From IMG/VR virus record IMGVR_UViG_3300042505_001513, positions 22,362-86,361 of that record: a stretch of 64,000 nucleotides of DNA. One strand, given 5' to 3'. The position numbers were made by a program, and so were the translations under genes. This document shows, piece after piece, positions 7,297 through 12,300 of this stretch (its first letter is position 1; each line of letters starts with the position of its first letter). The notes beneath the pieces were generated by a model. It searched no databases, was not told the DNA's origin, and saw nothing but the letters and a program-made list of their open reading frames with translations. This DNA comes from a virus.

Positions 7297-9372
7297 TTAC
7301 TGTAACTTCAAGAATGTATGTTCTCCAAAATCAGCAACTACTTTGCTTGAATCATACCAAGATGGTAGATTACCACCTTTACGTTGTTGTTTAGTCAATT
7401 GTATATTTAAAAAGTGATTTGCACCCTTAGTAATATCTTTTAAAGAACCACTCTTTGCTTTATCAACTAAACTTAAAGCATTTTTGAATTGAGTATGACT
7501 TCTCTTAGAATCAATAAATTGTTTGATTGATTCTGCATCTTTTTTATTAACTTTATTCCATCCGCTAAATTGTTTTGGTTTTAAACATTCAATTGCAGCT
7601 TGACGAATATTACCTTTAGAACGGTTCATAATTACATTCAATACAGCATGCATTCCGTCAGTTGGATTCTTTTCACCACCAGCTTCATCCACAAGTGTAG
7701 CAGCAACAACTTCTTCAACTGTATATGGTTGTTTAATCTGTGAAACTACAGTTGTTTCTGGTTTAGATGGTACAGGAGCACCTTGAACATCTGGACTACC
7801 AAATGCAGTTGCTGCGGCTAATGCAGTTGTTGCTAATGTCTTTTTCCAATCTTCTGTAATTTGACTTTCATCAAGACTACTTAAATCTTTAATAATTTTA
7901 CCCTTACCAGTTGCAGTTAGTAAAATACCTTTTTCTGCAATAAAATCTTTAATTGAATTTTTTACAGATGAATTAACGGCGGGTATATTTTTATTTGCAT
8001 CACCATTCATAGAAAAGTCATAATTTTGCATATTGGATAATGTCAAAAAATTATGATTTAAATCCAATACTGCTCTAATATAACCTTTCTTTATTGCATT
8101 ATCATAAGTGTCAATCAATGTAGCACCAACAAGTGATGAATCATGGTTTCTAATCCAATCTTCATGACTATATCCAGCTTCAACTACTTTACCATCAGGC
8201 GTAAACCAGTATTTCTTTTCTGGTGATACCGTGGTATTAAAACGCAACATTCTTTGTTGTCTTTCTTTTTGTTTATCTTCATAGTAACCTTCATCTAATT
8301 TTCTACCTTGTGGACCAAAATGATCCAAATGATGATAAACATCATCAAGATATTCACCTGCAAGATTCAATTTAGACTTTACCCAATCTTCCAATTGAGT
8401 GTTTGGCTGTAACATTGATTGTAATTCTTTTGCGTCACTATTAAGTTGTTTTAACGCACCCATTGCCATACTACTATTTTGTTCTTTCAACAGTTCTTGT
8501 ATAGCTTCCTTATAAGATTCTTTGACAGGCTTACTCTTAGTGTGTTTACCTGCTTTTCTTAACTGTCTAGCTCTACAATGTGCTTTTTGACTAAAACCTT
8601 TTGCATTACTACAATCTATAGATTTTTTATATGCATTAGTCCACTTTTCTTCAATGTTTTGTGTACCTTTTGCCTTTTCTTCACTATAAAACTTAAGGTA
8701 ATCTCTTATAGTGGCTACATAGTCACATGCATGATTCAATTTAGCCTTTACCCAATCTTCTAAATTATCATTGACGTTAAACATTGATTGTAATTTTTCA
8801 CTGTAATCAATGATTTTGGTAATATCACTTTGAGCCATTTCAGCATTTTCTGCTTTTAATTTGTTGACATGTGGATTGTCACGGTTTATTGGATGATCTT
8901 CATCACCTACACCAGTTGAATTACTATCCATCCATTGTTTGTGAGTCAATTCAGAAATACTATAATAATTAGGATCTTTCTTTAAATTTGAAATAGCAGT
9001 AATTACTGCTTTCAAATCATTTTCTTGAGTAAGCATTTCTTGAACCATTCCTAATTTTAATGTGTCAATTGAAACTTTTTCAAGAACACCAGCAATTGCT
9101 TTATCTTTATGTGTTAATGCTACTTTTTCTCCAATATCTTGTAATTCTTTTGCAATTTCTTTTTGACTATCAGTTAATGGAGAGTAGTCACTATTTTTAC
9201 CTAAACCATGTAACACTGAATCAACATGACTCTTGGTGATCTTCTTCAATCCCTTTTCTTTGATTGCTTGAGCTAATTTGGCTCCTTTGTGGGATTTCTT
9301 TAAAGTTTCAAGTTGTTTTAACTCACCAATTGCAGCTTTTGCGTATTCAATATATTTGCTATAGGTACTCAT
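7297..9372 (-). CDS. Virion-associated protein with C-terminal SleB-like cell-wall hydrolase domain
   Basis: 691 residues. Residues ~551-660 resemble the cell wall hydrolase SleB family: ATLVDEAGGEKNP, VLNVIMNRS and KGANHFLN match the family's E-A-x-GE, V-x-NRV and GATHFYN elements, with E563 the likely catalytic glutamate. The N-terminal 350 residues contain two related segments, NLEDWVKAKLNHACDYVATI (~203-222) and QLEDWVKSKLNLAGEYLDDV (~326-345), a DPNYYS motif (~133-138), and CSNAKGFSQKAHC (~254-266), all of the kind seen in T4-like virion proteins. A short Ala-rich segment (~513-524) could be hydrophobic. It probably cuts peptidoglycan during entry or is packaged in the head or neck. Confidence 0.6.
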   Translation of the reverse strand: MSTYSKYIEYAKAAIGELKQLETLKKSHKGAKLAQAIKEKGLKKITKSHVDSVLHGLGKNSDYSPLTDSQKEIAKELQDIGEKVALTHKDKAIAGVLEKVSIDTLKLGMVQEMLTQENDLKAVITAISNLKKDPNYYSISELTHKQWMDSNSTGVGDEDHPINRDNPHVNKLKAENAEMAQSDITKIIDYSEKLQSMFNVNDNLEDWVKAKLNHACDYVATIRDYLKFYSEEKAKGTQNIEEKWTNAYKKSIDCSNAKGFSQKAHCRARQLRKAGKHTKSKPVKESYKEAIQELLKEQNSSMAMGALKQLNSDAKELQSMLQPNTQLEDWVKSKLNLAGEYLDDVYHHLDHFGPQGRKLDEGYYEDKQKERQQRMLRFNTTVSPEKKYWFTPDGKVVEAGYSHEDWIRNHDSSLVGATLIDTYDNAIKKGYIRAVLDLNHNFLTLSNMQNYDFSMNGDANKNIPAVNSSVKNSIKDFIAEKGILLTATGKGKIIKDLSSLDESQITEDWKKTLATTALAAATAFGSPDVQGAPVPSKPETTVVSQIKQPYTVEEVVAATLVDEAGGEKNPTDGMHAVLNVIMNRSKGNIRQAAIECLKPKQFSGWNKVNKKDAESIKQFIDSKRSHTQFKNALSLVDKAKSGSLKDITKGANHFLNIQLTKQQRKGGNLPSWYDSSKVVADFGEHTFLKLQ

Positions 9373-9392
9373 ATAATGTAATAAATATTAAA

Positions 9393-10949
9393 TTATCTCC
9401 AACCGCCACCTTTTTTCTTATACCATTTAGCAGCCCAAGCATTGGCATAAGCTGAATTGCCAGTTATTGTTATCAAACCATTTTGATACATAACCCAAGT
9501 ATTATTTTCAGTTGTTGGACACCATACATCTTCATTTTCAACTTTTTCAAATTTAATGTTTTGAACAGAATGAAACTTTTTATTTCTAATAAAACTAGCA
9601 GCGGTAATATAGTCTCTATCATTTACTGAAACATAATAACCACTTAGATAAGCGGCAAGTAATCCGGCATCTAAGTGATCTGAATTTTTCTGTACAAACC
9701 CAAATGTATGTCTTCCTTCTATTTTAGAAGATGTACCTTTATCCCAACCATCATATATTATTGATGCAGCTAAAAATGCTTTTCTTTGATCTGAACTCAT
9801 ATTAATTACATTTTCAGTCCAATTGTCAAATTTTGAAAAATCTTCTAATAAAATTTTATTTTCAGTTTTTAATTCAGCACACATTACGATCCTAGATCTT
9901 TTTGGCAAATCTTTAGTTTCAATTAATTCAGTAATGGAATAATCATTGCCTCTTCTAACTACCCATTTATGATTAGGTGTACATTTGATTGAAAATCCGG
10001 TTGGTTTATACATTCTCACCAACTCTGCGTTTTCAAAAAAATTAAGATTTATAATTGGTTTCCATTCCAATTCATCCTTTTCTATATTATATGTAAGAAT
10101 TAATTCACCTTTATTTAATTCTTCATATGATTTCCATCCGTTTTTTGTTAATGATTTACTATCCAATGGTACACACGGATACACATCAAACTTTGATCTT
10201 GCCATTGATTTGGCTCTTGACCATAATTTAGGATTGGTTGGTTTTGCTCCTCTCTTTTTCTTCTTTTTTCTTACTTCATTTAACTCTTGATATGTTGGTT
10301 CAGTAATATCAATTTCAACGGTTTTATCTATGATTGGGTCACTTTTTCTACCACTTACTTGACCATTTGATGTTTTACCAATAGTACCACCCATGTTACC
10401 ACCATTAACACTATTATTACCTACTCTTGCTTTATCATTAAAACTTTGAGTAGGATCACCTAAACCTGAATTGGCAGATGGTTTAAATTCAGTAGCTAAA
10501 CCAGCATTTACTAATTTTGTATAATATTCAGGATCTTCTGTTAAATGGTCCATTGCAATTTCAGTTGCAATTTTTGGATCATTTGTGTGTTCCATTTCTA
10601 CTTGCACACCAATTGCTAATTCTTTGGTATTTACGTTAGATGGTGCTGTTGTATCACCTACACCACCAGTTAATGTGTTTACTTGTTCACCAATGACATC
10701 TTCATAGAACTCTCTATATGAGACATCCCAATCATTGTGTTTAGTATCAATCCACTTATCGAATTCATTAATACGTTTAAATTTATTATCTGGCATAGGT
10801 TTTTGTTTTTTCATTGGTTTTTGTATCTTACTAAATGTTTCATGATCATCATAGTAAGGATCAATTTGCCATCTTCTACCCTTCATTCTTGGATCACCAA
10901 TAAGAGGGTCATTTGGCTCTTCATTAATGTTTTGGATATCTTTTTTCAT
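9393..10949 (-). CDS. Virion-associated protein interrupted by an intein
   Basis: 518 residues as translated. Residues ~110-151 carry an EMEHTNDP...AMDHLTEDPEYYTKL segment of the DUF5661 type. The conserved C-terminal tail of the host protein is split: residues 240-258 (PKLWSRAKSMARSKFDVYP) are followed by the intein (259-498) and then S499AYANAWAAKWYKKKGGGWR. The joined motif, KFDVYP then SAYANAWAAKWYKKKGG, is the continuous form I know from phage structural proteins. The mature protein would have 278 residues. It lies in an operon with the SleB-like gene and overlaps the upstream gene by 26 bases. Confidence 0.75.
   Translation of the reverse strand: MKKDIQNINEEPNDPLIGDPRMKGRRWQIDPYYDDHETFSKIQKPMKKQKPMPDNKFKRINEFDKWIDTKHNDWDVSYREFYEDVIGEQVNTLTGGVGDTTAPSNVNTKELAIGVQVEMEHTNDPKIATEIAMDHLTEDPEYYTKLVNAGLATEFKPSANSGLGDPTQSFNDKARVGNNSVNGGNMGGTIGKTSNGQVSGRKSDPIIDKTVEIDITEPTYQELNEVRKKKKKRGAKPTNPKLWSRAKSMARSKFDVYPCVPLDSKSLTKNGWKSYEELNKGELILTYNIEKDELEWKPIINLNFFENAELVRMYKPTGFSIKCTPNHKWVVRRGNDYSITELIETKDLPKRSRIVMCAELKTENKILLEDFSKFDNWTENVINMSSDQRKAFLAASIIYDGWDKGTSSKIEGRHTFGFVQKNSDHLDAGLLAAYLSGYYVSVNDRDYITAASFIRNKKFHSVQNIKFEKVENEDVWCPTTENNTWVMYQNGLITITGNSAYANAWAAKWYKKKGGGWR
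9456..10175 (-). other. Intein (about 240 residues) at a YP/S junction
   Basis: The first residue is Cys259. Block A is CVPLDSKSLTKNGW, with YEELNKGELILTYN after it. Block B is KCTPNHKWVVRR, with the usual T-x2-H. Block F is DVWCPTTENNTWVMYQNG, and the C-terminal end is LITITGN followed by Ser+1. The penultimate residue is Gly in place of the common His; the terminal Asn is present. The central ~100 residues (AFLAASIIYDGWDKGTSSKI) faintly resemble a LAGLIDADG-type endonuclease but lack a clear active-site pair, so it is probably a mini-intein or a degenerate one. Splice-site residues for a class 1 intein are present, so it should be able to splice. Confidence 0.85.
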
Positions 10950-11499
10950 GTTTCTTTTGAGCCATTTCTTTCATTATTTCAGCAATTGCTTTTTCACCAT
11001 CAGTTCTATAATCTTGATATTGAAGTACTGGTTCACTTTGATATGGGTTTTGTGTAGGAATAAAAGGAGCTTGAGCTGGTTCAATATCATCATCATCAAT
11101 ATTCAACATATGTAATTTGCTGTAATATTTTGGATCTCTTTTAAGATTTGCTACTACCAAGATCTTAGCTAGATCTTTTCTTTTGTAGACCATTTTCTTC
11201 AATTCATATTGAATTCCGGCAATAACTTCATCAGGAGTTACTTTTGTTTTGATTTCTTCAACTTCTTTATCAAATTGTGCTGGATCTACCATTGGTTTAT
11301 TGTCATAATCCACTGGTGGAACTGCAGTTATGTTACTTTGACTACCAGCAATACTAGGAACATAACCAAAACTTTTTGGTGTTTGTGATACATCAGGTGA
11401 ACTAAATGTATCTACTCCAGAACCACCGCCACCTTGAATATAAGATTGGCCGGTGTACATTCTATCACCCAAATCATTTTCTTTTATAGGTTTAAACAT
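10924..11499 (-). CDS. Virion-associated protein with DPKYYSKL motif
   Basis: I take the ATG at 11499 (191 residues, MFKPIKENDLGDRMY), not the longer open frame upstream, which is low-complexity and runs into the divergent intergenic space. Residues ~85-130 (DEVIAGIQYELKKM...LKRDPKYYSKL) resemble the DUF5661-type segment of the neighbouring intein-bearing protein. The N-terminal region is Gly/Ser/Pro-rich. It is the first gene of the leftward virion operon. Function unknown, probably structural. Confidence 0.6.
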   Translation of the reverse strand: MFKPIKENDLGDRMYTGQSYIQGGGGSGVDTFSSPDVSQTPKSFGYVPSIAGSQSNITAVPPVDYDNKPMVDPAQFDKEVEEIKTKVTPDEVIAGIQYELKKMVYKRKDLAKILVVANLKRDPKYYSKLHMLNIDDDDIEPAQAPFIPTQNPYQSEPVLQYQDYRTDGEKAIAEIMKEMAQKKHEKRYPKH

Positions 11500-11513
11500 A
11501 CCTATAAATATTA
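11469..11513. repeat. Direct repeat copy 1 (35 shared bases, with a 10-base hairpin loop)
   Basis: The 22 bases at 11469-11490 and the 13 bases at 11501-11513 recur as one uninterrupted 35-base block at 13393-13427. In this copy the two parts are separated by 10 bases (11491-11500). TATAGG and CCTATA flank those 10 bases, so the extra bases form the loop of an inverted repeat. The copy covers the start of the leftward virion gene. Confidence 0.8.
11503..11510 (+). promoter_or_regulatory. Candidate T4-type late promoter TATAAATA
   Basis: An exact match to the T4 late promoter -10 box lies 61 bases ahead of the rightward GT9-like gene at 11572. Expected chance matches are many in DNA this AT-rich; position is the only other support. 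Confidence 0.35.
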
Positions 11514-11571
11514 GAAAACATAACGTTTTAAAAAAAAAGTTTTGATTATAGTAGGTATATGTATTGAAGTT

Positions 11572-12300
11572 ATGAAAAAATGTATAATATTTTGTCCTCA
11601 AGGTCTTGGTGACTGGGTAATGGTAAATCCAATTGTAAGAATATTATCTAAAAAATATGAAAGAGTTGCATTAATCTACAATTCATATTCAGCTGAATTT
11701 TTACCTAATATGTTCAAAGATCTCGAAAATGTACAATTGGAGTATAATTGTCAATCTGGACTTCCTGATATAAATGTTACTGGACCATATTATAAAGAAA
11801 GAGGTTATGACTGCATTGATTTGATCAGTTGTTTAGGTAAATATGTAGAACATAAGTTTGTTATTGATACCAAAAACTTAAATCAACCATACAACAGAGC
11901 TATGTATTCAAGTGCAGGATTTGACTGGAATAGAGATACCAAAGAATATTACATACCAATAGATGATGATGAATCAGAAAGATTTCATAAATCATTGAAT
12001 CTTCCAGAGGAATATATTTTTCTTCATGAAGGAATACATCCAAAAATTGATAGATCGCATATAATTAATAAAAACTTACCTATATTTGAACCACATTATG
12101 TACAAAATGTGTTCTTATATAAACATACAATAGAAAATGCCAAAGAAATTCATGTTGTGGCTAGTGGAATTTATAATTTTGCTGATAAATTAAATTTCAA
12201 AACAAATGATTTTTTTATGCATGGAACTAGAACACCACTTTTAGATTCACCATATTTAAATCCAATATTAAATAAACCTTGGAAAATGATCAACTATTAA
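11572..12300 (+). CDS. GT9-like glycosyltransferase (heptosyltransferase-like)
   Basis: 242 residues from the ATG at 11572; the upstream in-frame TTG is less likely. The N-terminus, IIFCPQGLGDWVMVNPIVRIL, resembles the GDx(V/I)xxxP motif that opens the GT-B fold of ADP-heptose:LPS heptosyltransferases. A second Rossmann-like segment (EIHVVASGIYNFADKL) lies near the C-terminus. It is the first of three rightward genes between the two copies of the 35-base direct repeat. Substrate unknown. Confidence 0.5.
   Translation: MKKCIIFCPQGLGDWVMVNPIVRILSKKYERVALIYNSYSAEFLPNMFKDLENVQLEYNCQSGLPDINVTGPYYKERGYDCIDLISCLGKYVEHKFVIDTKNLNQPYNRAMYSSAGFDWNRDTKEYYIPIDDDESERFHKSLNLPEEYIFLHEGIHPKIDRSHIINKNLPIFEPHYVQNVFLYKHTIENAKEIHVVASGIYNFADKLNFKTNDFFMHGTRTPLLDSPYLNPILNKPWKMINY

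Follow-up and report, generated by a model that had tools for sequence, protein, structure and literature searches.

A phage intein lineage that appears to track a short protein module rather than any one gene

What is the 240-residue segment that divides a conserved motif in a phage protein, and how did it come to lie there? The window analysed here, a 64,000-nucleotide stretch of DNA, belongs to a virus record of 86,361 bases that encodes a clamp loader and a phage DNA polymerase; an earlier note on this DNA described the replication enzymes as uninterrupted where visible, which is true of this polymerase. On the minus strand, where all window features given below lie, an open reading frame at 9393..10949 encodes a precursor of 518 residues, or 278 after predicted splicing. 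Its N-extein (residues 1-258; 10176..10949) ends in KFDVYP and its C-extein (SAYANAWAAKWYKKKGGGWR plus stop codon; 9393..9455) opens with the +1 Ser. Between them lies a 240-residue insert, CVPLDS...LITITGN (precursor residues C259-N498; 9456..10175), which sits cleanly in FDVYP^SAYANAW. The adjoining 691-residue protein (7297-9372) carries a Hydrolase_2 (cell wall hydrolase) domain at its C-terminus and a stretch, SIDCSNAKGFSQKAHC, that looks conserved.

The earlier note took the insert for an intein splitting a conserved motif, and Hint-domain profiles, homology to phi92, an intein-free homologue and an AlphaFold model all agree with that reading. In the profile search the insert matches Pfam Intein_splicing (E 3e-6; 27.5 bits, short of the 35.8 that Pfam itself requires) and TIGR01445 (E 4e-4, starting at intein residue 1). 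With tblastn, it aligns over its full length to the phi92-type DNA polymerase intein (33% identity, E 9e-30), which carries an intein annotation in phage PaulScherrer. The same gene without the insert is found in L016, where the two exteins are continuous in a 289-codon open frame and FDVYPSAYANAW is unbroken. The blastn alignment of the window with L016 stops exactly at the insert (9456/10177): positions 7798-9456 match at 89.4% and 10177-11575 at 87.0%, both flanks meet at adjoining L016 bases (4096 and 4095), and the junction shows no additional insertion or deletion. An AlphaFold2 model built with 25 relatives (pLDDT 93.1, pTM 0.90) retrieves PI-SceI (9e-9), the TliVMA intein, AceL NrdHF and MchDnaB1 from the PDB with Foldseek, the last two being class 3 inteins. 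The insert thus combines an exact, in-frame junction that is empty in a homologue with a Hint fold, a +1 nucleophile, blocks A, B and F and the terminal Asn, as previously described, and likewise block G. Judged by sequence and modelled structure, 9456..10175 is an intein, with splicing predicted.

Scans of viral contigs yielded related inteins with both junctions, amounting to 29 distinct alleles; a scan of genome contigs turned up no relatives. All 29 alleles share C1, T66, H69, W71, C219, T238, G239 and N240, and all have Ser at +1. In the window, Cys1 lies in block A (10137..10175), T66-P-N-H69-K-W71 in block B (9957..9998), Cys219 in block F (DVWCPTTENNTWV; 9492..9530), and T238 with the terminal Asn240 in block G (GLITITGN; 9456..9479). 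The TGN ending had been considered atypical; with G239 in 29 of 29 alleles, Gly ahead of the final Asn is instead the rule of the family. The Bethlehem RDF intein offers a functional example, in which changing this Gly to His hinders splicing (PMC5050341).

A feature overlooked in that note is that the Trp-Cys-Thr signature of class 3 inteins occurs together with Cys1 in one intein. W71, C219 and T238 occupy the class 3 positions Trp B:12, Cys F:4 and Thr G:5 in every allele, as checked on the BAKA TerL intein with PMC5050341 and PMC7891396, and this likeness extends to the MP-Bethlehem DnaB and Catera Gp206 inteins (PMC5050341). Class 3 inteins, however, by definition have no N-terminal nucleophile (PMC3196547). 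Assignment to class 3 proper was dropped because Cys1 is kept in 29 of 29 alleles; the Gly before the final Asn also sets the window intein apart from that class. Catera Gp206 likewise keeps a class 1 nucleophile (Ser1).

The centre of the intein, which had been said to lack a clear endonuclease active site, folds in the AlphaFold2 model as a helix-strand-strand-helix-strand-strand LAGLIDADG unit (intein residues 119-203; 9567..9821). The assignment draws on this secondary structure, the PI-SceI match and an alignment with two-unit relatives; the motif FLAASIIYDG lies at 9747-9779, D142 is the predicted acidic catalytic residue, and D142/G143 are present in 28 of the 28 alleles that retain the domain. 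A mini-intein devoid of homing endonuclease was therefore dropped as a description of the window allele. Aligned with relatives of 296-352 residues that carry two units, the window intein is missing the first unit and retains the second. It resembles full LAGLIDADG inteins such as PI-SceI in that a LAGLIDADG domain interrupts the Hint fold, and differs from them in having one unit against two. Some intron enzymes, such as I-CreI, work as homodimers. Low dN/dS is seen in the Hint part and the LAGLIDADG part alike, and by these substitution rates purifying selection acts on the endonuclease part. The L222 intein has lost both units; this 163-residue mini-intein (contig IMGVR_UViG_3300037725_000018) occupies the same site in a host of 99 residues.

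The interrupted motif is the core of a module of about 45 residues with the consensus PTNPxLWSRAKSxARSKFDVYPSAYANGWAAKWYKxKGGGW and the core FDVYPSAYAN. Its N-terminal half in the window (KPTNPKLWSRAKSMARSKFDVYP; 10176..10244; phrog_27331) is kept in 35 uninterrupted copies, and its C-terminal half is supplied by the C-extein (9396-9455), as seen from the L016 comparison and the allele alignment. In the model, the FDVYPS turn connects the two helices of the module, and no match came from a fold search restricted to the module. At the DNA level the core spans about 30 bp, with hardly any variation at most first and second codon positions, and the rest of the module adds 60-90 bp of partial homology. 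It occurs in at least 587 matched stretches of phage proteins. In the best 80 of these it is uninterrupted except in the window's own family, and the proteins, which differ greatly, carry it at either end or in the middle. Against a phage collection, a 30-residue motif query found no match and a 60-residue query found 18 records, and no paper in the literature collection searched mentions YPSAYAN. Cyanophage P-SCSP2 encodes a short motif-bearing protein between its scaffolding and major capsid genes, and Sf-CH8 one among replication and nucleotide genes.

All 29 alleles lie in this module or a sister motif: 26, including that of the window, at YP^SAYAN, and the other three at WPSAYA^SG. Each insertion-site group forms one clade (support 100/100), with the phi92 intein outside. 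For the sister motif, VWPSAYASG, there are matches to PHROGs 727, 38880 and 3477 and a weak one to DUF5872. In the proteins that carry an intein, the exteins total 55 to about 1,190 residues; the hosts of L194, L198, L199 and L226 have 55-78, hardly beyond the module, and their intein is 3-5 times larger. Close to its N-terminus, the large host protein of L100 (2445-5000) contains a domain resembling the HicA toxin.

Neighbouring genes differ widely between hosts. In L201 the host gene lies between a tail sheath stabiliser and a terminase, with a virion structural protein also nearby; L107 has SbcC and SbcD as neighbours, L226 a polymerase exonuclease subunit, L113 a cytidyltransferase and L003 a glycosyltransferase. 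Because neighbours differ across host groups, the sequence comparisons indicate that the intein follows the module and not one gene. Hosts were compared by pairwise and neighbourhood tests, since single-linkage clustering joined them in chains through other modules that they share. Flanking genes are common to the window, L003 and L004, and another set to L006, L007, L009 and L010; some host pairs, sharing neighbours, are probably orthologues by position whose architecture has been remodelled.

The earlier note called the host a virion protein, a label that is at present conjectural. Structural neighbours occur in the L201 group only, and the window host has DUF5661 (residues 107-146; 10512..10631; Pfam E 2.5e-10), the motif of unknown function with its unknown PHROG, and no further family matches. 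Nor would a structural host be as unusual as supposed, given the precedents of mycobacteriophage portal inteins (PMC5050341) and an intein-like segment in the Twinkle tape measure. These are likewise phage inteins outside replication enzymes, in other host genes, and targeting of a shared module is not described for them. The Twinkle segment (Gordonia phage, L180) comprises 352 residues, CVPLDV...VVLTSN, with two LAGLIDADG motifs, and is unannotated as an intein. In Vibrio phage ICP1_2011_A (L181, 1735-5009), a ribonucleotide reductase intein spans two overlapping annotated genes in different frames, and its reading frame looks shifted.

Between L197 and L208, intein identity is 94% at the protein level and 93.8% at the DNA level. 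Outside the module no similarity between their exteins could be detected, and further out than about 90 nt on either side DNA identity is at chance level (27% vs a 31% background). For L008 and L010, the intein has dS 0.23 and dN 0.012 and the N-extein is saturated (pS 0.76); identity in the module 30-90 nt upstream is only 57%, compared with 95% in the intein. Nine pairs were examined for identical-codon use in intein versus adjoining module. The intein was more alike in three, the most recent ones, in which near-identical inteins sit in diverged or dissimilar hosts (0.86 v 0.65, p 0.0032; 0.87 v 0.65, p 0.0018; 0.95 v 0.80, p 0.0029; each about 0.02-0.03 after Bonferroni correction), and no difference was found in the other six, all older.

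How should this pattern be explained? That the 240 residues are an ordinary domain of the host protein is hardly credible: the sub-threshold Pfam score would suit it, but L016 lacks the insert at an exact junction, the splicing residues are invariant and the confident model resembles inteins; the empty site led us to drop this reading. It is also unlikely that we are looking at a conventional allelic intein, whose hosts would all be one orthologous gene of fast-evolving architecture with no movement between genes. The shared flanking genes within the two sets of loci named above speak for such orthology, as does the single module copy in each of the 22 records searched, where no movement between genes of one genome is seen; the contrasting neighbourhoods between groups, and hosts of 55-78 residues that hardly exceed the module, speak against it.

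A further possibility, which we rate as distinctly improbable, is that phage recombination shuffles module and intein as a whole between genes, the intein itself being no longer mobile. Such a passenger would be in keeping with the shuffling of the module itself among proteins, the halved LAGLIDADG part, and the equal divergence of intein and module in six of nine pairs. It is harder to reconcile with purifying selection on the LAGLIDADG unit and with the three most recent pairs, or with the gap between module and intein in L008/L010. Because the intein exceeds the module in identical-codon use in those three pairs, the data favour homing over transfer of the module with a passenger intein.

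We therefore consider it probable that the window carries a homing intein, a distant relative of the phi92 polymerase intein, specialised on a short mobile protein module. The inteins in the DNA polymerases of phi92 and its relatives are alike in size (about 245 residues), in the single LAGLIDADG unit, Cys1, the W-C-T residues and the ITGN end; they differ in host gene, in their +1 Cys and in falling outside the module-site clade. The exact insertion, intact signatures, module-bound distribution and recent intein-specific similarity are direct observations. Once translated, the intein would cut itself out of the precursor and ligate YP to SAY, leaving the 278-residue protein. The single LAGLIDADG unit would cut module copies without an intein, for which the conserved core of about 30 bp is a plausible target, and repair from a filled copy would spread the intein. 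Phage genes with nothing else in common share the module, which could therefore provide the site to be cut as well as homologous flanks for passage between non-allelic genes. Relatives of the intein appear to have spread from phage to phage, tracking the module and not any one gene. A point against homing is that the LAGLIDADG part is half of the typical two-unit enzyme. The more specific proposal, that a module-targeting lineage repeatedly invades non-homologous genes with its single unit acting as a homodimer, is one we advance tentatively, as somewhat less than an even chance.

The usual view ties an intein to a single site, since a break in an unrelated gene would lack flanking homology from which to be repaired; movement to ectopic sites is accordingly called very rare (PMC1635734). 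The RPB2, ThrRS and ClpP inteins are a parallel in that related inteins sit in different genes, but those show no flanking nucleotide similarity (PMC1635734), whereas here the shared module provides it and the transfers would be recent and repeated. A shuffled module fits both this view and the preference of inteins for conserved sites (PMC2814812). Such a module would provide target and homology in one piece, and near-identical inteins of recent origin occur in dissimilar hosts; experiments with cloned donor and recipient modules could then address directly how inteins come to enter new genes. The family may also be a source of compact inteins tolerant of widely differing exteins, some as short as about 55 residues.
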